DNA of 64,000 nt from Phycisphaerae bacterium (GTDB lineage Bacteria; Planctomycetota; Phycisphaerae; Sedimentisphaerales; Anaerobacaceae): NCBI GenBank assembly GCA_030615025.1, contig JAUXAB010000004.1:1-64000 (forward strand), read 5' to 3'. Position numbers and translations under genes: made by a program. A model generated the notes under the pieces. It saw only the letters and a program-made list of their open reading frames with translations, ran no database searches and had not been told where the DNA came from. Shown piece by piece: positions 6,032-25,074 of the stretch (position 1 is its first letter; each line of letters opens with the position of its first letter).

Positions 6032-7480
6032 ATGGCAGTAAAGTTAAGACTTATGAGGATGGGAAGGCGGCATCGCCCGTTTTTCAGAATCAATGCCGTC
6101 GAATCACGCACGCCGCGCGACGGAAAAGTAATTGAAAAGCTCGGCCATTACGACCCCATTGAAAAAGACCCGGCAAAGCAGGTTGTCCTAAATCTCGAGC
6201 GCGTTCGGTATTGGCTCGATAAGGGGGCAATACCCTCCGATACCGTCTCGCAAATCCTGCTTCGCCACGGCATCAAGCACCAATATGCCGAGGAAAAGGC
6301 CGCTCGTCGCGCACGCGCTAAAGCTATGGCTCGTGCCAAAGGCAGACCCTTCACAAAAGCTGAGCGGATAGCCCTCGAAAAGCCAGCCGAGCCAGCCAAA
6401 GAACCCAAGCCCGAACCTGAGCCAAAACCAAAAGCAGAAGTTGAAGAAAAACCAAAGCCCGAACCCGAGGCAAAGGTCGAGGCCGCTGAAGAGAAGCCGC
6501 AAGCCCCCGAAGAAAAAGCCGAGCCTGAACCTAAAGCAGAAGAAAAACCTGAACCCGAAGCAAAGCCCGAGGTAGAAGCAGAGGCAAAGCCCAGGACCGA
6601 AGAAGCTAAAGCCCCCGAAGAAAAGCCCGAACCCGAGCCAAAACTAAAAGCAGAAGTTGAAGAAAAACCCAAGCCCGAACCTGAGCCAAAACCAAAAGCA
6701 GAAGTTGAAGAAAAACCTGAGCCCGAACCCGAGGCAAAGGTCGAGGCCGCTGAGGAGAAGCCGCAAGCCCCTGAAGAAAAAGCCGAGCCTGAACCTAAAG
6801 CAGAAGAAAAACCTGAACCCGAAGCAAAGCCCGAGGTAGAAGCTGAGGCAAAGCCCAGGACCGAAGAAGCTAAAGCCCCCGAAGAAAAGCCCGAACCTGA
6901 GCCAAAAGTCGAGGCCGCTGAGGAGAAGCCAGAAGCTCCTGTCAAGAAAAAACCCGAGGCTGTGCCGGAAGCCAAAGAACAAGTAGCTGAAGAACCTAAG
7001 CCTGAAGCCGAACCTGAAGCCGAGCCGGTAGTTGAAGAAAAAGCTCAGGTCGAACCTCAAGCCGCGGCGGAACCTGAGGAAAAGCCCAAGGCAAAGGGCA
7101 AAAAGAAAACGACTAAAAAGGCCAAAACCAAAGTTGAGCCGCAAGCCCCTGCAGAACCCAGAGAAAAAACCGAGCCCGAGGTAAAAGCCGAGGCTTCTGA
7201 GGAAAAACCCGAAGCTGAGCCGCAGGCCGAAGAAAAAAGTCTTGAGGAACCTAAAGCCGAAGCCGAACCTGAAAAGGTAGAAGAAAAGCCAAAACCTAAG
7301 AGAAGGAAAAAAGCAAAGGTCAAGCCGAAAGCCGAAGAGAAGCCGGTAGAAGAAGAAGCAGAAGCCAAAGAAAAATCAAAGCCGGTACGTAAAAAGAAAA
7401 CCGCTAAAAAGGCCAAAACCGAAGCCGAAACCAAAGAAGAAGAGCAAACGCCTTCCAGCGAAAATGAAAAACAAGAGTAA
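6032..7480 (+). CDS. rpsP: Ribosomal protein S16 with a long Lys/Glu/Pro-rich C-terminal extension
   Basis: Residues 1 to about 85 are a normal S16 ([20 protein letters not shown]), a 30S subunit assembly protein usually 80-100 residues long. Here the frame continues to 482 residues. The extra 390 residues consist almost wholly of Glu, Lys, Pro and Ala with alternating E-x-K-P motifs, so they are probably disordered. Two copies of an 88-codon unit (264 nt apart, for example 6476 and 6740) are nearly identical. The start has AAAGGAAG as ribosome binding site. The stop overlaps the trmD start (TAATG). The C-terminal part is more Lys-rich, with K-K-K-T-A/T-K-K blocks. Confidence 0.9.
6413..6908 (+). 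repeat. Tandem 264-nt direct repeat inside the S16 tail
   Basis: The stretch from about 6413 recurs from about 6677 with an exact offset of 264 nt (88 codons) and only a few, mostly silent, differences. It is an in-frame recent duplication within low-complexity coding DNA and so is prone to copy-number change. Confidence 0.85.
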
Positions 7481-8199
7481 TGCGAATTGATATCCTAACG
7501 CTCTTCCCGGAGATGTTTGAATCACCCCTGGGCCACTCGATATTAAAAAGAGCTCAGGACTCCGGGATTGTCGATATCGCTCTTACAAATATAAGGGATT
7601 TCGCCACTGATAATTACAGAAAGGTTGATGATAAGCCGTATGGCGGCGGGCCGGGTATGGTTATGATGCCCGGCCCGGTCTTTGATTGCTTCGAATATGT
7701 TCAGAAGCTCTCTCCCGAAAAAGGCCACACCATCCTGCTGACCCCACAGGGACAACGATTCGACCAGGTAAAAGCAGCCGAATTAAGCGCCGAGAAACGG
7801 CTGATTTTAATCGCCGGCAGATACGAAGGCATCGACGAGCGAATTCGCATCGGTCTCGGAGCCGAGCAAATCTCTATCGGCGATTATGTTCTCAGTGGCG
7901 GCGAGCTCGCCGCTATGATAATCGTCGACGCCGTCGTCAGGTTATTAGCCGGTGCCCTTGGCGATGAGGACTCGCCCAAAGACGATTCCTTCAGCGAGTC
8001 CGCCCGTGGCGGACTGGAGTATCCCCAATATACCAGGCCGGAAGTCTTTCGCGGAATGAAGGTCCCTGACATTCTTTTAAGTGGTGACCACGCTAAGATA
8101 GCCGAATGGCGGCGTCAGCAGGCCATCGAGAGAACAAAAAAATGGCGACCAGACTTACTCAAAGACAACAACAATAAAAATGAAAAGAGCGAAGGCTAA
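7480..8199 (+). CDS. trmD: tRNA (guanine-N1)-methyltransferase TrmD
   Basis: Methylates G37 of tRNAs that read CNN codons, using S-adenosylmethionine. The 239-residue protein begins [13 protein letters not shown] and has the trefoil-knot motifs Y-G-G-G-P-G-M (near residue 54), G-R-Y-E-G-I-D-E-R (near 112) and G-D-Y-V-L-S-G-G-E (near 133). Its ATG overlaps the rpsP stop codon, so translation is probably coupled. rimM, which usually lies between rpsP and trmD, is missing here. The next gene follows after 2 nt. Confidence 0.97.
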
Positions 8200-8201
8200 A
8201 A

Positions 8202-9833
8202 ATGGAAAACCTTTGCCCCGTTAGAAATTCCAAAGCGCACAAGAACACAGAACAGTCCTCGTTAGAACTCAGTCGTCAACTCCCCAAACACAAAACCAAG
8301 ATTTCTAACGGGGTGAATAGGCGCCAATTTCTCAGTCTCGTCGCTGGCGGAGCCGCCGCGGCACTGACTCCTCTCTCCGGCTGTGAGAGCCAGCTTGCCG
8401 GAGCCGGAGTCCCGGCAGCAAAGCGGCCCAACATTATCTTCATGATGGCCGACGACCAGCGGTGGGATGCTATGGGCTGCATGGGCAATCCCGTAATCAA
8501 GACGCCGAACATGGACCGTCTGGCTTCGGATGGAGTACTTTTCGAAAACGCCCTTCTAACCACTTCCATTTGCATGGCCAGCCGCGCCGGTATCATGTTA
8601 GGCCAGTTCGAGAGTCGCCACCAATGCAATTTCGAACGCCCAAGCAACAAGACGATATCCTTCGCCGAATTTGAAAACAGTTACCCCCGCCTCTTACAAA
8701 AAGCCGGATACCGGACCGGCTTCATCGGCAAGTTCGGCTTCGCCGTCTCCAAAGACAAAGTCCTCAACTGCCCCCTCAATCCCGACGGCACCCGTGCCGG
8801 CAAAGGCCATTTATGGAAAAAGCCCGAGTACATGCCCAGCGACAAATTTGACGCCTGGTATGGCTTCCCCGGACAGGGCACCTACTTCACGAAGGGCAAA
8901 TCCGGCAAACATCTCACCCGCATTATGGGCGAACAAGCCGCCGAGTTCTTCCAAAGCGGTGACCCCGCTCAGCCCTTCTGTCTTTCGATAAGTTTCAAAG
9001 CCCCGCACGGCCCCACACAACCGGACCCTGCCTACAACGGTATGTACAAAGATGTCAAAATCCCCCGCCAGCCAAATGAGGGCGACCAATATTTCGAAAA
9101 ACTGCCCAAAGTCGTCCGCGAGCATTGGCGTGGACGCAGAGTTTACCGAAGCCAGGCCGGCCTCGACACCTATCAGCCCTTTATGGAGCGCTACTACCAA
9201 TGTATCACCGGAATTGACACCGTCATTGGCCACATACGTGCCGAACTAAAGCGTCTGAAATTAGATGACAATACCATTATTATCTATACCTCCGACAACG
9301 GCTATTTTTGCGGCTCAAAAGGCCTCGGCGGTAAGTGCCTGCTCTACGAGGAATCCATACGCACGCCGCTAATCATATTCGACCCCCGCCTCGACGTATC
9401 AAAACGGGCAGCTCGACGTCCGCAGTTGGTGATGAGCGTCGACTTTGCCCCCACCATGCTCGATATGGCAGGCCTAAAAACACCGCCGACAATGCAGGGG
9501 CTGAGCTTGCTCCCGCTTCTCACCGGCCCAAAGACGAAGTGGCGTGACTCGACTTTTCACGAAAACAACTTCACCTCCCACTTTATGCCGGCTTTATCCA
9601 ACGCCGGCGACCAGCGCGAAAAGGTCCTCGAGCGAAGTGTTCGCAGCAAAGCCGTTCGAACAAAACGCTTCAAGTATATTCGCTATTTTGAGCAGCAGCC
9701 CATAATCGAAGAGCTGTTCGATCTTCAAAACGACCCTATAGAAGCCTTCAACCTCGCTGAAAAACCGCAATATGCTGACATCCTCGTCTCGCTGCGCAAA
9801 CAATGTGACAACTGGATTCGCAAAGCCAAATAA
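8202..9833 (+). CDS. Sulfatase (S1 family) with an interrupted Tat signal
   Basis: Exported sulfatase, 543 residues. Metal ligands D84-D85 and catalytic motif C-M-A-S-R at Cys124 (Ala instead of the usual Pro). A lipobox-like L-S-G-C ends at Cys61. The Tat motif N-R-R-Q-F-L is at residues 39-44, unusually far in. Residues 1-4 (M-E-N-L) and then N-R-R-Q-F align with M-K-N-L-N-R-R-Q-F of the related sulfatase at 13822, so 34 codons (8214-8315) look inserted. GAAGG 6 nt before ATG 8202 supports that start; GTG 8313 is the alternative and would give a clean Tat signal. Confidence 0.9.
   Translation: MENLCPVRNSKAHKNTEQSSLELSRQLPKHKTKISNGVNRRQFLSLVAGGAAAALTPLSGCESQLAGAGVPAAKRPNIIFMMADDQRWDAMGCMGNPVIKTPNMDRLASDGVLFENALLTTSICMASRAGIMLGQFESRHQCNFERPSNKTISFAEFENSYPRLLQKAGYRTGFIGKFGFAVSKDKVLNCPLNPDGTRAGKGHLWKKPEYMPSDKFDAWYGFPGQGTYFTKGKSGKHLTRIMGEQAAEFFQSGDPAQPFCLSISFKAPHGPTQPDPAYNGMYKDVKIPRQPNEGDQYFEKLPKVVREHWRGRRVYRSQAGLDTYQPFMERYYQCITGIDTVIGHIRAELKRLKLDDNTIIIYTSDNGYFCGSKGLGGKCLLYEESIRTPLIIFDPRLDVSKRAARRPQLVMSVDFAPTMLDMAGLKTPPTMQGLSLLPLLTGPKTKWRDSTFHENNFTSHFMPALSNAGDQREKVLERSVRSKAVRTKRFKYIRYFEQQPIIEELFDLQNDPIEAFNLAEKPQYADILVSLRKQCDNWIRKAK
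8214..8315 (+). repeat. In-frame palindromic-ended insertion in a Tat signal
   Basis: The segment has perfect 13-bp inverted ends, CCCCGTTAGAAAT (8216-8228) and ATTTCTAACGGGG (8301-8313). It separates codons for M-E-N-L from N-R-R-Q-F. Its length, 102 nt, is exactly 34 codons and no stop is introduced. It behaves like an in-frame palindromic element. Confidence 0.7.
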
Positions 9834-9857
9834 CACTTTCCAGAAAGGCTAAAAGTA

Positions 9858-11285
9858 ATGATCGGAGATTGCCCAATCAACAGAAACCTGAATCGACGCC
9901 AATTTCTTACTCTCGCAGCCGGCGGCGCTGTCGCAGCTGTAACGTCTTTCGGTGGTTGCAGTAGCGAGCGGGTGGCAGCCTCAAAGCCGAAGGCTTTGGG
10001 GATGGCCCAGCCGAACATCATCTTCATAATGGCCGACGACCTCGGCTACGCCGACCTCTGCTGTTACGGACAAAAGAACATACAAACCCCGAACATTGAC
10101 CAGCTCGCCGCAGAAGGCACGCGCTTCACACAATGCTACGCCGGCTCCACCGTCTGCGCACCATCCCGCAGCGTCCTTATGACCGGACAGCACACCGGCC
10201 ACACTCGTGTCCGAGGCAATTTCGGAAATGTCGGAGGCGTCCTCGTCCTCGGCAGTGGTAGCTCACAAAGACGCATCCCGCTCGAACCCGAAGATGTCAC
10301 CGTCGCCGAAGTCCTAAAACAAGCTGGATACGCCACCGGCATCACCGGCAAATGGGGACTCGGCGAACCGGACACTACAGGCCTACCCAACCGACAGGGC
10401 TTCGACGAATGGTTCGGCTACCTGAATCAGCGAAATGCCCACAGCTATTACCCGCCATACCTCTGGCACAACGAGCAAAAAGTAATCCTTGAAGGCAACA
10501 AGGACGGTCGGCGCCGGCAGTACTCCCACGACCTCGTCACCGACTTTGCCCTCGACTTTATCCGCCGCCGCAGCGATGGGCCCTTTTTCCTGTACCTGCC
10601 CTTTACCATCCCGCACGCAAAGTACGAAATCCCCACCACCGAACCCTACACCGACAAGCCCTGGCCGAAGGACGCAAAGGTCCACGCTGCTATGATTACA
10701 AGAATGGACCGTGACGTCGGCTCTATTATGGCCCTCTTAAAGCAGCTCGACATCGACCGCCACACAATCGTCTTTTTCTGCTCCGACAACGGAGCCGCCC
10801 AACGCTGGGAAGGCATCTTCGACAGCTCCGGCCCGCTTCGGGGACGCAAGCGTGACATGTATGAAGGCGGCCTCCGCACACCGATGATTGTCCGCTGGCC
10901 GGCAATGGTCCCCGCCGCCAGGCTAAACACCACCGCCGTGTGGTACTTTGCCGACCTCCTGCCGACACTGGCTGAACTCGCAGACGTAAAACCGCCTCCG
11001 GGAATTGACGGAATCAGCATCCTGCCCACACTGCTCGGCAAAAAACAGAACACAAGCGACCGCTTTTTGTACTGGGAATTCCCCTCAGGCGGCTTTAAGC
11101 AGGCTATCCGCTGGCGTAGCTACAAGGCAGTGCGCCTCGCCCCGGACAAGCCGCTCGAGCTTTACAACCTCGACAAAGACCTCGCCGAGCAGAACAACAT
11201 CGCCGCCCGGTACCCTGACGTGGTTGCAAAAATCCAGAACTATCTAAAAACCGCCCGAACCGACTCGCCAAACTGGCCCATTTAA
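9858..11285 (+). CDS. Sulfatase (arylsulfatase A-like), Tat/lipoprotein signal
   Basis: A 475-residue exported sulfatase. The Tat motif N-R-R-Q-F-L is near residue 12 and a lipobox-like F-G-G-C ends at Cys34. Metal ligands are D60-D61 and the formylglycine site is C-A-P-S-R at Cys100, followed by the L-M-T-G-Q-H-T-G-H-T segment typical of arylsulfatase A-like members. It lies 24 nt after the previous sulfatase in the same direction, so the two are probably co-transcribed. It is less similar to the 8202 and 13822 products than those two are to each other. Confidence 0.9.
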   Translation: MIGDCPINRNLNRRQFLTLAAGGAVAAVTSFGGCSSERVAASKPKALGMAQPNIIFIMADDLGYADLCCYGQKNIQTPNIDQLAAEGTRFTQCYAGSTVCAPSRSVLMTGQHTGHTRVRGNFGNVGGVLVLGSGSSQRRIPLEPEDVTVAEVLKQAGYATGITGKWGLGEPDTTGLPNRQGFDEWFGYLNQRNAHSYYPPYLWHNEQKVILEGNKDGRRRQYSHDLVTDFALDFIRRRSDGPFFLYLPFTIPHAKYEIPTTEPYTDKPWPKDAKVHAAMITRMDRDVGSIMALLKQLDIDRHTIVFFCSDNGAAQRWEGIFDSSGPLRGRKRDMYEGGLRTPMIVRWPAMVPAARLNTTAVWYFADLLPTLAELADVKPPPGIDGISILPTLLGKKQNTSDRFLYWEFPSGGFKQAIRWRSYKAVRLAPDKPLELYNLDKDLAEQNNIAARYPDVVAKIQNYLKTARTDSPNWPI

Positions 11286-11438
11286 CGGGCAAAAAGAAGA
11301 CCTGGCCACTGGAATTTCTGCCCGCTCGCTTGTATAATAATAAGGATTGCAGCAGCACCGGAACGGGCACGAACACGCACCCACTGAACTGCTGAAAAAG
11401 ACAGCGGAAAATAACAAGAAAAAATACGGGGGACAAAA

Positions 11439-12590
11439 ATGAACTGTCCAAAATGCGGCCAACAAAACCCGGACGATGTTCAGGTTTGCACTTCCTGCGG
11501 TTCAGAATTGACACAGCCCCCCACACCTGCAGAATCCGTAAATGTCAGAACCAGCCGTCTCGCTATCGCGTCACTCATACTTGGCATTCTGACCATTTTT
11601 ACCTTCTCCTTGGCGGTAACACTTAAAAGCGACATTCTTGCCCTTATCTGTTTGGGCGTAGTAATATCCGCTATGGTCCTTGGTATTATCAGTCTTGCCC
11701 TAATCGGCTTAAGTGCCGGCAGGCTGATTGGCAAAGGAATTGCTGTCACGGGCATTTTGATTCCGGTGCTTTTTTACGCCGCATTCACCATAAGCGCATT
11801 TTTGTACGGACCCAGGTCATTCGCCTATCGTGCGGTCTGCGGCTCCAACCTCTCCGGCATAGGCAGGGCGATGCTCATCTATAACAGTGATTTCGGCGAC
11901 CTGAGATTCCAAGAGGCAGGTGGACCCGGCACGATCTGGCAGCCCAGGATAAACAACTGGCAGGCTAAGGATCGGATCACAGCATTCAACCTAAAACCAG
12001 ACGGCACCGGCGGCTCCGCAACAATCTCCTCAAGCTTTTATCTTCTCGTCAAGTATAGCGCAATGTCTCCAAAGTCCTTTTGCTGTCCGGCTGACAGAAA
12101 GACCAGGCCATTCAAGGCATCTGATTACACATCAGGGATGGACGACGAGGATGCCTGGGATTTCGGCCCCGATCCGACAAAGCACTACAGCTACTCATAT
12201 CATATACCTTATAGCCAATATGCTCTGTTGGATACTTTCGACCCCAGTATGGCTGTAGCAGCCGATAGAAACCCCTGGCTCGACCCTTATACCGATACAA
12301 CCGGCTTCAAATGGGACAGCCAAACAAAGTCCAGAAGACGTGAGAATATTAAAAGGTACCTGAAGGGAAATTCCGGCCTTCACAAAAGAGAGGGTCAGAA
12401 CATATTGTTCCTTGACAACCACGTCTATTTCGAGAAACGCTCTTTCTGTGCCTTTAACGATGATAACATCTACACCTATTGGAACGGCTCGGATATCCGG
12501 CAGGGCGCCCCACCCACATTGACCAGCCAGCCCGCAGACAAACTCGACTCACTACTCGTTAATGAACCACCAACGAGGGATCAAAAATGA
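11439..12590 (+). CDS. Zinc-ribbon membrane protein with a pilin-like C-terminal region (copy 1)
   Basis: A 383-residue protein. The N-terminus is a zinc ribbon with C3, C6, C17 and C20. It is followed by a DUF4190-like pair of long hydrophobic segments (about 45-125) with a G-I-x-L-I-x-x-x repeat character. The C-terminal half has C-G-S-N-L-S-G-I-G-R-A-M-L-I-Y and ends with G-L-H-x-R-E-G-Q-N-I-L-F-L-D-N-H, like the H-x9-DG end of planctomycete pilin-like (DUF1559) proteins, but there is no prepilin leader. It overlaps the next gene by ATGA. Role unknown; a membrane-anchored surface or assembly protein is plausible. Confidence 0.75.
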   Translation: MNCPKCGQQNPDDVQVCTSCGSELTQPPTPAESVNVRTSRLAIASLILGILTIFTFSLAVTLKSDILALICLGVVISAMVLGIISLALIGLSAGRLIGKGIAVTGILIPVLFYAAFTISAFLYGPRSFAYRAVCGSNLSGIGRAMLIYNSDFGDLRFQEAGGPGTIWQPRINNWQAKDRITAFNLKPDGTGGSATISSSFYLLVKYSAMSPKSFCCPADRKTRPFKASDYTSGMDDEDAWDFGPDPTKHYSYSYHIPYSQYALLDTFDPSMAVAADRNPWLDPYTDTTGFKWDSQTKSRRRENIKRYLKGNSGLHKREGQNILFLDNHVYFEKRSFCAFNDDNIYTYWNGSDIRQGAPPTLTSQPADKLDSLLVNEPPTRDQK

Positions 12591-13741
12591 ATTGCCCAAA
12601 ATGCGGAACCCAAAATCCAGATGATATCCAGGTTTGCAACTCCTGTGGCTCGGATTTGACACAGCCTTCTGAAGCAACCGAATCCGTAAATGTCAAAACC
12701 AGCCGCCTCGCCATCACAACGCTGGTACTCGGTATTCTAATTCCTTTAGTATTTTTCCTCGCGGTGATGTTTAAAAGCTTCGTTCTTGCAATTACTTGTA
12801 TGGCTGCGACAATATTAGCCGTAATCCTCGGCATCATCGGTCTTGTCCAGATTGCTATAAGTGCCGGCAGGATAACCGGCAAAGGCTTTGCTGCAATAGG
12901 AATCGCAATCCCTGTGGTCTTATTCTCTATGATATTTCTGGCCGCACTTTTTTTATACAGACCTCCGACTGCCTATCGAATGGTCTGTGGCTCCAATCTG
13001 TCCGGCATCGGCAGGGCAATGCTCATCTACGCCAACGATTGGGATAACTGTTTTCCCCGTGCAGGTGGAACGGACACAATCTGGCAGACGAAGTTAAACA
13101 ACTGGCAGGCAGACAATCGAATCGACGCCTTCGGTTTAAGACCCGATGGCACTGGCGGCTCCGCAACAATCTCTTCGAGCTTGTATCTTCTGGTCAAATA
13201 TGCCGAGGTTATGCCGAAGTCCTTTATTTGCAACAAGGATACCAAAAGCACCGAGTTCAAACCTGCTAAATATGGCGCACGTCGAAAAAAGCTGACCGAC
13301 TTTTGGGACTTCGGTCCCAATCCCACAAAACACTGCAGCTACTCTTATCATATGTGTTATGGCCCCTATCCTTTGAACACAACATCCTCCGACGCCGGTA
13401 TGGCTGTAGCCGCGGACAGAAACCCTTGGCTCGATCCTTATACCGATACAACCGGCTTTAGGTGGGACGACAAAACAAAGACCGGAGGACGTGAAAATAT
13501 AAGAAGATACCAGAAAGGAAACTCCGGGCTTCACCAAAGAGAGGGGCAGAACGTATTGTTTGTGGACACCCACGTCTATTTCGAGAAACAACCTTTTTGC
13601 GGCGTCAACCAGGACAATATCTATACCTATTGGAACGGCTCAGACGTCCGCCAGGGCGCCCCACCCACCCTCAAAAGTCAGCCCGCTGACAGACTCGACT
13701 CACTCCTCGTAAACGACCCACCGAAAGCCGCTCAGAAATAA
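12587..13741 (+). CDS. Zinc-ribbon membrane protein with a pilin-like C-terminal region (copy 2)
   Basis: A 384-residue tandem paralogue of the preceding gene with the same architecture: zinc ribbon C3, C6, C17, C20, hydrophobic middle, C-G-S-N-L-S-G-I-G-R-A-M-L-I-Y, and the C-terminal G-L-H-Q-R-E-G-Q-N-V-L-F-V-D-T-H. The two copies are close to identical over the N-terminal ribbon and the last 100 residues and differ most in the membrane segment and around residues 200-250. The ATGA overlap with copy 1 implies coupled translation. The tandem pair sits between two sulfatase genes. Confidence 0.75.
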   Translation: MNCPKCGTQNPDDIQVCNSCGSDLTQPSEATESVNVKTSRLAITTLVLGILIPLVFFLAVMFKSFVLAITCMAATILAVILGIIGLVQIAISAGRITGKGFAAIGIAIPVVLFSMIFLAALFLYRPPTAYRMVCGSNLSGIGRAMLIYANDWDNCFPRAGGTDTIWQTKLNNWQADNRIDAFGLRPDGTGGSATISSSLYLLVKYAEVMPKSFICNKDTKSTEFKPAKYGARRKKLTDFWDFGPNPTKHCSYSYHMCYGPYPLNTTSSDAGMAVAADRNPWLDPYTDTTGFRWDDKTKTGGRENIRRYQKGNSGLHQREGQNVLFVDTHVYFEKQPFCGVNQDNIYTYWNGSDVRQGAPPTLKSQPADRLDSLLVNDPPKAAQK

Positions 13742-13821
13742 AACCTTTTCAAGCACCGACCTCAACTGTAATAATAGTGTGACAGTTACAAAAAACCAGA
13801 TGACCTTGAAAGGTTGAGAAC

Positions 13822-15240
13822 ATGAAGAATCTTAATCGACGCCAATTCGTAAAGCTCGTTGCAGGAAGTGCCGCAGCGCTCTTACCTGCGCCTGGCTGCA
13901 AAAGTGAACTTGCAAGAGCCAGAAACGCGGCAGCAAAGCGCCCAAACATCATTTTCTTATTAACTGATGACCAGCGATGGGACACTATGGGCTGCATGGG
14001 CAATCCCATCATCCATACTCCGAATATGGATGATATGGCAAAAAATGGGGTCCTGTTCACAAATGCTTTTATCACGACCTCTATATGTGCATCCAGCCGC
14101 GCCAGCATCCTTTCCGGACAATACGTCCGCCGACACGGTATCAACAACTTCTCCACCAGCTTCTCTGAGCAAGCGTTAGCCCAGACATACCCGCTGCTCC
14201 TTCGCAGCGCAGGCTATCGCATCGGCTGCGTAGGAAAACACGGCGTCGGAAGAGGACGCGACTTCCCTGTTGACAAATACGACATCTGGTTCGGCTGCGC
14301 CGGCCAATGCTCACCATACGAACGCAAGGACAAAAACGGTAACTACAAACATCTCACCCAAATCTTCGGCGAACAGATAATCGAATTCTTGGACGGCTGC
14401 TCCAAAGATAAACCCTTCTGTCTCTCCGTAAATTTCAAGGCCCCGCACGTCCAGGATAATGACCCGCGCCAGTTCATCCCCGACCGCGCATACAAGGATT
14501 TGTACAAGGATGTCACCATTCCAACCCCGAAAACCGCTGACCCGCGTTACTTCCAGGCCCTACCCGAATTCCTCCGAACCTCCGAAGCCCGCCGCCGGTG
14601 GAACATACGTTTCTCCACTCCCGAAAAATTCCAGGAATCTGTTAAAAACTATTACCGCCTGATTTACGGCGTCGACGTCGTCATTGGAAAAATCCGGGAT
14701 GAGCTTAAACGCCTCAACCTCGATAACAACACAATCATAATGCTGACCGGAGACAACGGCTTTTATCTTGGAGAGCACGGACTTGCTGGAAAATGGTTTC
14801 CACACGAGGAATCCATCCGCGTGCCGCTGGTTGTCTTCGACCCCAGGGCACCGAAGAGACTGCGTGGTGTCACTATCGAGCAGATGGTACTTAACGTTGA
14901 CATCGCGCCGACGATTCTTCAGCTCGCCAGCCTAAATGTCCCAGAGCAGATACAGGGCCGAAGCCTCGTCCCTCTACTGACCGGCCAAAGACCAAAGTGG
15001 CGAACCGACTTCTTTTACGAGCACCTCTTTAACCATCCGAAAATCCCAAAGACCGAGGCCCTCCGCACACAGCGCTTCAAATACGCCCGCTATATTGACT
15101 TTGACTACGAAGAGCTTTACGACCTCAAATCCGACCCGCAGGAGACAGTGAACCTGGCAAAAAATGAAAAATACCGGCGGACCTTAAAATCTCTGCGAAA
15201 ACGCTGCGACGAGCTACTCCAAATGGCAAAAGGCACCTGA
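13822..15240 (+). CDS. Sulfatase (S1 family), Tat/lipoprotein signal
   Basis: A 472-residue exported sulfatase with the clean N-terminus M-K-N-L-N-R-R-Q-F and a lipobox-like P-A-P-G-C at Cys26. Metal ligands D49-D50; the catalytic Cys89 sits in C-A-S-S-R, with Ser where most S1 sulfatases have Pro or Ala. It is clearly the nearest relative of the 8202 product (shared D-D-Q-R-W-D-x-M-G-C-M-G-N-P). Maturation would need a formylglycine-generating or anSME enzyme, which is not in this window. Substrate unknown. Confidence 0.9.
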   Translation: MKNLNRRQFVKLVAGSAAALLPAPGCKSELARARNAAAKRPNIIFLLTDDQRWDTMGCMGNPIIHTPNMDDMAKNGVLFTNAFITTSICASSRASILSGQYVRRHGINNFSTSFSEQALAQTYPLLLRSAGYRIGCVGKHGVGRGRDFPVDKYDIWFGCAGQCSPYERKDKNGNYKHLTQIFGEQIIEFLDGCSKDKPFCLSVNFKAPHVQDNDPRQFIPDRAYKDLYKDVTIPTPKTADPRYFQALPEFLRTSEARRRWNIRFSTPEKFQESVKNYYRLIYGVDVVIGKIRDELKRLNLDNNTIIMLTGDNGFYLGEHGLAGKWFPHEESIRVPLVVFDPRAPKRLRGVTIEQMVLNVDIAPTILQLASLNVPEQIQGRSLVPLLTGQRPKWRTDFFYEHLFNHPKIPKTEALRTQRFKYARYIDFDYEELYDLKSDPQETVNLAKNEKYRRTLKSLRKRCDELLQMAKGT

Positions 15241-15298
15241 ATCCGCAAAATTTGAAAAAGTTCTTGCCTTGCATAGAAAAATATATATACTTTTCTGT

Positions 15299-15316
15299 TT
15301 ATCTCGATCGAGATAA
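15299..15316. promoter_or_regulatory. 18-bp perfect palindrome in the rplS leader
   Basis: TTATCTCGATCGAGATAA is a perfect palindrome 20 nt upstream of the rplS start, just after an AT-rich stretch (15275-15290) that could hold the promoter. It could be an operator or, in RNA, a hairpin near the ribosome binding site. Confidence 0.5.
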
Positions 15317-15336
15317 GAGTTTGATTAGGAAACAAT

Positions 15337-15735
15337 ATGGCAAAGAAAGAAAAAACTTCTACGGCCTCAAAAACCGACTTGCTCGACGCCGTTGAAAACA
15401 AGAGTCTAAAGAAAAAGATACCGCATTTCGAAATAGGCGATACCGTCGATGTCCGTTGCAGCATCAAGGAAGGCGACAAAGAGCGTATACAGGTATTCAC
15501 CGGCACAGTAATCGCCCGTAGAGGCCGCGGAATCAATGAAACCTTCACAGTGCGGCGAATCGTCGATAACGAGGGTGTCGAACGAATATTCCCCCTGCAT
15601 TCCCCGAACGTCGTCAATATCAGGCCGGTCCGAAGTGGCAAAACGAGACGTGCAAAACTCTATTTCCTCCGCAAGCGAACCGGCAAAGCCGTCCGCCTCG
15701 CTCATCGCCACAGCGCACACACCGTTTCCAAATGA
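15337..15735 (+). CDS. rplS: Ribosomal protein L19
   Basis: A 132-residue 50S subunit protein located at the 30S-50S interface. The core motifs are F-E-I-G-D-T-V-D-V, the G-R-G-I-N-E-T-F-T-V-R-R-I segment and the C-terminal R-R-A-K-L-Y-F-L-R-K-R-T-G-K-A. It carries about 25 extra residues at the N-terminus compared with common L19. The gene follows the sulfatase cluster and completes the rpsP-trmD-rplS order. Its own promoter is likely in the 96-nt AT-rich leader. Confidence 0.95.
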   Translation: MAKKEKTSTASKTDLLDAVENKSLKKKIPHFEIGDTVDVRCSIKEGDKERIQVFTGTVIARRGRGINETFTVRRIVDNEGVERIFPLHSPNVVNIRPVRSGKTRRAKLYFLRKRTGKAVRLAHRHSAHTVSK

Positions 15736-24609: not shown

Positions 24610-25074
24610 TTGCTAATCCCTATTAGAAAGACACGAAGGCCCATTTTAGCCGCAGATTGTACATATTACACGGACTTTTTTAGACAGGATAGCAGGGATT
24701 AAGACGGATTTTCGCTTGGCAGAAATTTTGTTTTTAGGTATGGCAACCAGTGTCGGCGTCTGAGAGTCAAGTTTTTCAGCAACTGTCCACAACTGAAGAC
24801 GGACCTGATTATCAAGAAAATCTGCACAGCAATTTAGGTGCGATTCATCGCACCCTACCCAACCAGAACGCCCACAACCATGTAGGGTGCGATATTTCGC
24901 ACCTCTTTGACTTGCAATTTTAAGATGGATTTGGTAGCCTATGACGCTCAAACGGCGAAAAGATAAAAAAAGGCGTGTAAATGGGAAATTTTGTGTAACC
25001 TTTCTATCGGATAAAGCCTGCTATCAGAGGAAGATTTTATTGGGACCAGTCCAGATACAGTAAGGATCAAGGAA
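24610..25074. other. Spacer with a GGTGCGAT inverted repeat pair
   Basis: 465 nt without a gene. It holds the repeat at 24836-24904 and a GACAGGATAGCAGGGAT word near 24683. The last 60 nt before the lipoprotein gene probably carry its promoter, but no clear -10/-35 pair stands out. Confidence 0.55.
24836..24904. repeat. Inverted pair of palindromic GGTGCGAT...CGCACC repeats
   Basis: Arm 1 (24836-24858) contains GGTGCGATTCATCGCACC and arm 2 (24882-24904) contains GGTGCGATATTTCGCACC. Each arm is itself palindromic, and the two arms are inverted to one another with flanking CCCTAC/GTAGGG. The RNA could form either one long or two short hairpins. Confidence 0.8.

Follow-up and report, generated by a model that had tools for sequence, protein, structure and literature searches.

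The window, by which we mean the whole 64,000-nucleotide stretch of Phycisphaerae DNA analysed here, contains a sulfatase gene interrupted close to its start by a palindromic insert. This insert is very probably a MITE-like element that was mobilised in trans and that, as its sequence reads, would be translated in frame as a 34-residue extension of the sulfatase.

The palindromic insert in the sulfatase gene

The sulfatase ORF (8202–9833, forward strand) encodes 543 amino acids, with Pfam matches to Sulfatase at residues 76–424 and to SGSH_C at residues 373–537. Its N-terminus reads M-E-N-L-C-PVRN...ISNGV-N-R-R-Q-F, in which residues 5–38 derive from the element and its flanks. The sequence-only reading had described a palindromic-ended, stop-free insert of 102 nt that keeps the frame, and this description held. 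The element proper measures 98 bp (8216–8313), and the remaining 4 nt correspond to the size of the target duplication of the family. The terminal inverted repeats, CCCCGTTAGAAAT on the left (8216–8228, forward strand) and its counterpart on the right (8301–8313, reverse strand), are 13 bp each, 100% complementary and spaced by 72 nt, and the reading frame stays open across both arms. The flanking tetranucleotides, TTTG (8212–8215) and TGAA (8314–8317), both on the forward strand, each fit YNNR but differ from one another, and no identical target duplication was found at the window copy. This inequality possibly reflects later mutation, gene conversion or the replacement of an older insert; an empty site carrying TGAA would give back M-E-N-L-N-R-R.

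When aligned to the 62-bp members of the family, the window element was resolved into an outer element of the 62-bp type and 36 extra nucleotides. Within these extra nucleotides, a decayed nested copy of a sister mini-element (CCCCGTTAGAAGT type) was identified at 8257–8281 (forward strand), where 21 of 25 bases match and the local score is 34, against a best of 22 among 2000 shuffles. The outer insertion (98+4) and the nested 36 nt alike preserve the frame. The outer element would have entered between codons 4 and 5, just before the twin-arginine lipoprotein signal, and the nested sister element would have been acquired later, again in frame. Immediately after the element lies NRRQFLSLVAGGAAAALTPLSGC (8316–8384, forward strand), which we take to be a Tat/lipoprotein-type signal. 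The sulfatase copy is the only family member in the window, in which matches to the 12-base core with two mismatches were at chance level (7 observed, 6.15 expected).

A sibling sulfatase in the window (13822–15240, forward strand) is free of the element and served as comparison sequence. It starts M-K-N-L-N-R-R-Q-F and agrees with the codons on both sides of the insert, as had been noticed from the sequence alone. The same reading had suggested that the insert may move translation to the in-frame GTG at 8313–8315 (forward strand); the segment would then be untranslated and the open frame upstream of the true start accidental. The N-terminal position of the insert would suit this alternative, and the accessible part of one study describes REPs at N-termini that may be extragenic through misannotation (PMC3733652). 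However, a putative ribosome-binding site, GAAGG (8191–8195, forward strand), lies 6 nt 5' of ATG 8202, and none was evident on reading the sequence before the GTG. The sibling's uninterrupted N-terminus and the preservation of frame by both insertions also argue against an untranslated segment, as do the many other family copies located mid-protein. A shift to the GTG thus found no support, and an untranslated segment appears unlikely. Most likely, the sulfatase would still be translated from ATG 8202 with the 34-residue extension at its N-terminus. Since this extension sits before the cleaved signal, the mature sulfatase would be unchanged; during Tat and lipoprotein processing, the extension would leave together with the signal peptide.

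Other features were also observed in the window. The ORF at 6032–7480 (482 aa), which we take to be ribosomal protein S16-like, carries a very long C-terminal repeat extension rich in Lys, Glu and Pro. From 7480 to 15735, sulfatases and paired zinc-ribbon-type proteins separate two genes that, by reading, are presumably TrmD-like and L19-like, as if this block had been inserted into the usual rpsP-trmD-rplS cluster. At 24836–24904, a 23-bp inverted repeat (87% complementary, spacing 23 nt) is possibly another dispersed repeat.

Copies and distribution of the family

In the host genome (3.92 Mb), the exact 13-mer end was found at 58 sites, compared with 0 for the reversed control, so further copies exist; with one mismatch allowed, the counts were 140 and 10, respectively. 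The family consists of dispersed palindromes with CCCCGTTAGAART ends, mostly 46–74 bp long. Being short, bounded by terminal inverted repeats and devoid of a transposase gene, they show the features by which MITEs are recognised. A single end was present in 16 of 61 genomes and paired ends in 7 of 37, whereas sampling across the phylum yielded paired ends in 2 of 149 genomes (own genome included in all three counts). Among 116 genomes from the phylum of the Patescibacteria genome G066, paired ends occurred in 2, G066 included. A few genomes are rich in the family and most are without it, and the distribution is therefore patchy. In an Omnitrophica UBA1562 genome of 1.4 Mb (G061), 222 CCCCGTTAGAA sites were counted with at most one mismatch; the control gave 36.

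A scan of genome contigs identified at least 114 stretches with the element. By hand count of their titles, these included at least 43 from Patescibacteria, 20 from Omnitrophota, 18 from Planctomycetota, 9 from Elusimicrobia and 8 from Deltaproteobacteria/Syntrophaceae. At least 2 were titled Nitrospirae, at least 1 Clostridia and at least 13 only "bacterium"; the titles of MAGs may be wrong, which makes groups with a single match weak. Spread by phages was considered and set aside, as a pair of ends occurred in only 1 of 2.9 million viral contigs. A three-way-junction DNA fold was likewise dropped as a general feature because its strength is uneven between elements: two elements from the contig scan fold strongly (z of −8.9 and −7.6), a 62-bp planctomycete element more weakly (−4.1), and the window element reaches −2.3 through its end stem only. 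Additionally, the Patescibacteria genome Bin_050 (G063) harbours an abundant sister family with CCCCGTTAGAT ends and units of about 40 bp, and at G000:C90:10667-10734 and similar places a further nested palindrome of the TCCCGATACATCGGGA type was observed inside the element.

Target duplication and empty site

Duplications were sampled in 150 distinct exact-end elements from loci L001–L189, of which 149 had both flanks present. All counted copies were selected by exact ends, which biases the sample against decayed elements; it also includes a few orthologues. Identical 4-bp flanks were found in 87 of the 149 copies, whereas 2000 shuffles gave a mean of 8.5 and a maximum of 17. Matching flanks of 3 bp (3 copies) and 5 bp (2 copies) were rare compared with those of 4 bp. 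The pattern YNNR fits 86 of the 87 duplications and, among the 62 copies without identical flanks, is found on both sides in 50, including the window copy.

An empty site was recovered in the tRNA-modification gene truA. A TruA protein search covered 41 genomes, 32 of which matched; 25 loci were fetched and 12 rows aligned. The insert is present in one of the 12 rows, that of the own genome, where the DNA reads CATCTG CCCG, the 59-bp insert, and CCCG CAAAACTT. In G003, a genome of the same genus, CATCTG CCGC AAAAACTT stands in its place; the site is there once, with a slight local divergence. At another TruA site, in L284, L288 and L298 (G008, G013 and G023, respectively), an unrelated insert, likewise in frame, was observed. 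Its G008 and G013 versions resemble SSCVVRDAYCEKG...NTQYE and look, by eye, like an imperfect palindrome; the insert may represent another protein-coding palindrome family. Its motif is absent from the 64-kb window.

Preservation of the reading frame

The in-frame, stop-free state of the window copy proved to be a trait of the whole family. Elements were counted as in-gene when a stop-free frame crossed them with at least 100 flanking codons, and 76 qualified. Their lengths are 2 mod 3 in 75 cases and 1 mod 3 in one, compared with a 29/24/21 split among the other 74 elements (Fisher p 2.5e-17). A slightly different rule gave 78 elements in genes (76, 1, 1) and 72 outside (28/24/20). Sizes of 46–74 bp account for 75 of the 76 in-gene elements, and the window copy measures 98 bp. 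Because the in-gene rule itself favours in-frame copies, an upstream-only test was added, in which elements were classed solely by an open frame of 120 codons or more leading into them; 51 qualified. Reading leaves the element in frame in 38 of these and out of frame in none; in the other 13 it ends within the element, 7 times at the TAG of the terminal repeat. This rule picks the longest frame on either strand, and for the window an antisense frame was chosen.

In-gene elements are read in phase A in 56 cases, in phase C in 20 and in phase B in none. The TAG within the ends is confined to one of the three phases, and outside genes none of 148 strand readings has that phase open. The two readable phases give xPVR(N/S)...(I/T)SNG(V/A) in 56 cases and xPLE...(F/L)LTG in 20. 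This distribution is more skewed than stop codons alone would give (45 and 31 of 58 open), a small comparison that hints at phase A being favoured over C beyond the stop-codon effect.

Given the observed ends, duplications, dispersion and single empty site, we infer an enzyme acting in trans, which would recognise the CCCCGTTAGAART ends of the non-autonomous element, and a cut at YNNR sites that would duplicate 4 bp on insertion. With a length of 2 mod 3, the element plus these 4 bp would add a multiple of three, and either TAG-free phase would then yield a translated linker of about 20 residues. Purifying selection would remove frame-shifting copies, so that the intragenic survivors are in frame. 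Random insertion with loss of frame-breaking copies explains the pattern, and no beneficial role is needed.

Candidate mobilising enzymes

An autonomous parent was searched for in 189 loci (1.03 Mb) as inverted end pairs 0.6–4 kb apart with a duplication. No autonomous copy with family ends was found in this 1.03 Mb; two candidates emerged, and on reading neither looked like a transposase. MAGs often lack multi-copy transposons, which makes such absence weak evidence. Among known enzymes, the IS1380 transposase fits poorly as mobiliser, being present in only 2 of 12 element-bearing genomes (G000 and G004), and so does DDE_Tnp_1, with presence in only 4 of 10. Seven DDE_Tnp_1 loci (L249–L255) were collected as well; the check for family ends covered 35 IS1380 and Y1 loci, 1 of which has them.

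The elements might alternatively be of the REP type, moved by Y1 tyrosine transposases (RAYT or TIRYT). Nine of 11 genomes with the element carry Y1 genes, and the accessible part of one study records intragenic REPs and TIR families (PMC3733652). However, the end sequence CCCCGTTAG lies within the roughly 3 kb of only 1 of 30 Y1 loci, and Y1 fits poorly as mobiliser. Furthermore, target duplication is not expected of IS200/605-type insertion, whereas variable 4-bp duplications flank 87 of the 149 copies sampled here. A REP-type origin is, on this evidence, improbable.

Relation to known palindromic elements

According to the accessible parts of three studies, Rickettsia palindromic elements (RPEs) are palindromes of 100–150 bp that occur in Rickettsia and Wolbachia and whose insertion leaves reading frames intact (PMC10969869, PMC3767692, PMC4316617). 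So far as these sources describe them, the Rickettsia and Wolbachia elements resemble the present family in being short, scattered palindromes found both between genes and in frame within unrelated functional genes, where the encoded peptides are tolerated. The sequence-only reading had likened the insert to them, and the likeness stands for the kind of element, an in-frame, stop-free palindrome in functional genes. The family itself appears to be a different one: its copies mostly fall below the RPE size range, as does the window copy, and it has defined ends, a 4-bp YNNR duplication and hosts among the uncultivated bacteria of several phyla. Because it works like RPEs, which were compared here by description, but has its own size, ends, duplication and hosts, it was filed as a separate MITE-like family. 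No Rickettsiales titles were seen among the matches listed for the at least 114 loci of the genome scan. Although in-frame palindromes in unrelated genes are the hallmark of RPEs in the parts of those papers that were available, it is very unlikely that the insert is an RPE proper or a direct descendant of one.

REPs of the GTAG/CGTC type also occur within genes and may supply stop codons, as the accessible part of one study indicates (PMC3733652). From what that source gives, REPs and REPINs share with the present family the short palindromes, the occurrence in many phyla including Planctomycetes, the location of some copies in ORFs and the donation of TAG to some neighbours. They differ in that no GTAG/CGTC tag was recognised here, and the present family has two inverted ends, a target duplication and Y1 genes without its ends. 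MITEs share the terminal inverted repeats, the target duplication, the lack of a transposase and the occasional in-frame fusion. Unlike bacterial MITEs, in-gene copies of the present family are in frame as a rule, and its ends are common to several phyla. No account of this palindrome family was found in the open-licence text of PubMed Central, to which the search was confined.

Host proteins and retention of the inserts

Inserts of 19–25 extra residues were found in SecA, TopA, LipA, TruA, Tex, bL25, TGT and other proteins, essential ones among them. Compared with solved structures, LipA, TruA and bL25 show clean insertions. The LipA insert (L173) spans residues 373–394, with query residues 371 and 393 both meeting chain residue 132. 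The TruA insert (L033, 160–179) falls between chain residues of about 140 and 143, and bL25 (L143) is matched in two pieces, 19–68 and 97–239, around an insert at 76–100. Tex (L115) is matched over 14–756 with its insert at 255–278, and the aligner opens no single clean gap. Pfam matches were obtained for 19 of the 20 host proteins submitted. The domains RACo_C (L106), Topoisom_bac (L148), ETF (L104) and Rce1-like (L064) span the insert. TGT (L162) and a chorismate-binding enzyme (L070) show two Pfam stretches each, the best starting right after the insert. SecA (L082) carries its insert directly past the final domain, DNA polymerase I (L174) and FHIPEP (L189) carry theirs between or before domains, and the remaining inserts are near protein ends or without domain assignment.

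In four orthologous or paralogous pairs of loci, and in a fifth pair (L114/L141), both members have an element at the corresponding position; the ends had been preselected as exact. The element is identical at 59 of 59 bases in L032/L267 (G000/G003; flanks 86% over 700), at 61 of 62 in L044/L273 (G000/G007; flanks 88%) and at 56 of 62 in L009/L107 (flanks 76%), the flank match being listed for one side in these three pairs. The values are 47 of 47 bases in L076/L091 (flanks 83–89%) and 56 of 65 in L114/L141, where only one flank was matched (68%). The identity in L032/L267 extends to the 33 interior bases, which the exact-end filter did not touch; at flank identity, the chance of this is about 0.8% by hand arithmetic. 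Such identity suggests slow change or conversion, and selection is not proven by it.

Twenty sulfatase loci were fetched for comparison, and the N-terminus was readable in 10 (the window's own and nine others); L230 had no readable N-terminus, and a further one, in L233, reads M-K-N-L-N-R-R-Q-F as in the sibling. The window's 34 residues are absent from all nine readable relatives, from L233 and from the sibling at 13822. At the matching position ahead of the twin-arginine motif, a G003 paralogue (L231) has a half-decayed copy of its own (SNPVRNSR...). Even though a few orthologous elements equal or exceed their flanks in conservation and some copies may be kept, this absence and the independent paralogue copy make it scarcely credible that these 34 residues belong to the sulfatase family as an ancient, conserved and functional part.

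Significance

Protein palindromes inserted in frame have so far been regarded mainly as a feature of Rickettsia and Wolbachia, with scattered REP cases. Here the same is seen for a single family whose ends are fixed and whose duplication can be measured; it spans several phyla and, in the present sample alone, accounts for about 75 intragenic copies, many of them in core genes. We lean towards regarding it as one transposable peptide linker that shares the same 13-bp ends across at least five or six phyla of mostly uncultivated bacteria. In two readable phases, it would add about 20 residues to core proteins of secretion, topoisomerase function, DNA polymerase I, tRNA modification, lipoate synthesis and the ribosome; it would be moved by an unrecognised transposase, and some inserts would have been in frame since before genera diverged. 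For annotation, segments of the pattern PVR(N/S)...SNG(V/A) in MAG proteins probably stem from inserts, and masking them is an option in alignments and structural work. Two long-standing questions now become testable: how proteins come to tolerate and retain newly gained segments, and by which enzyme elements of this kind are carried between distant bacteria.
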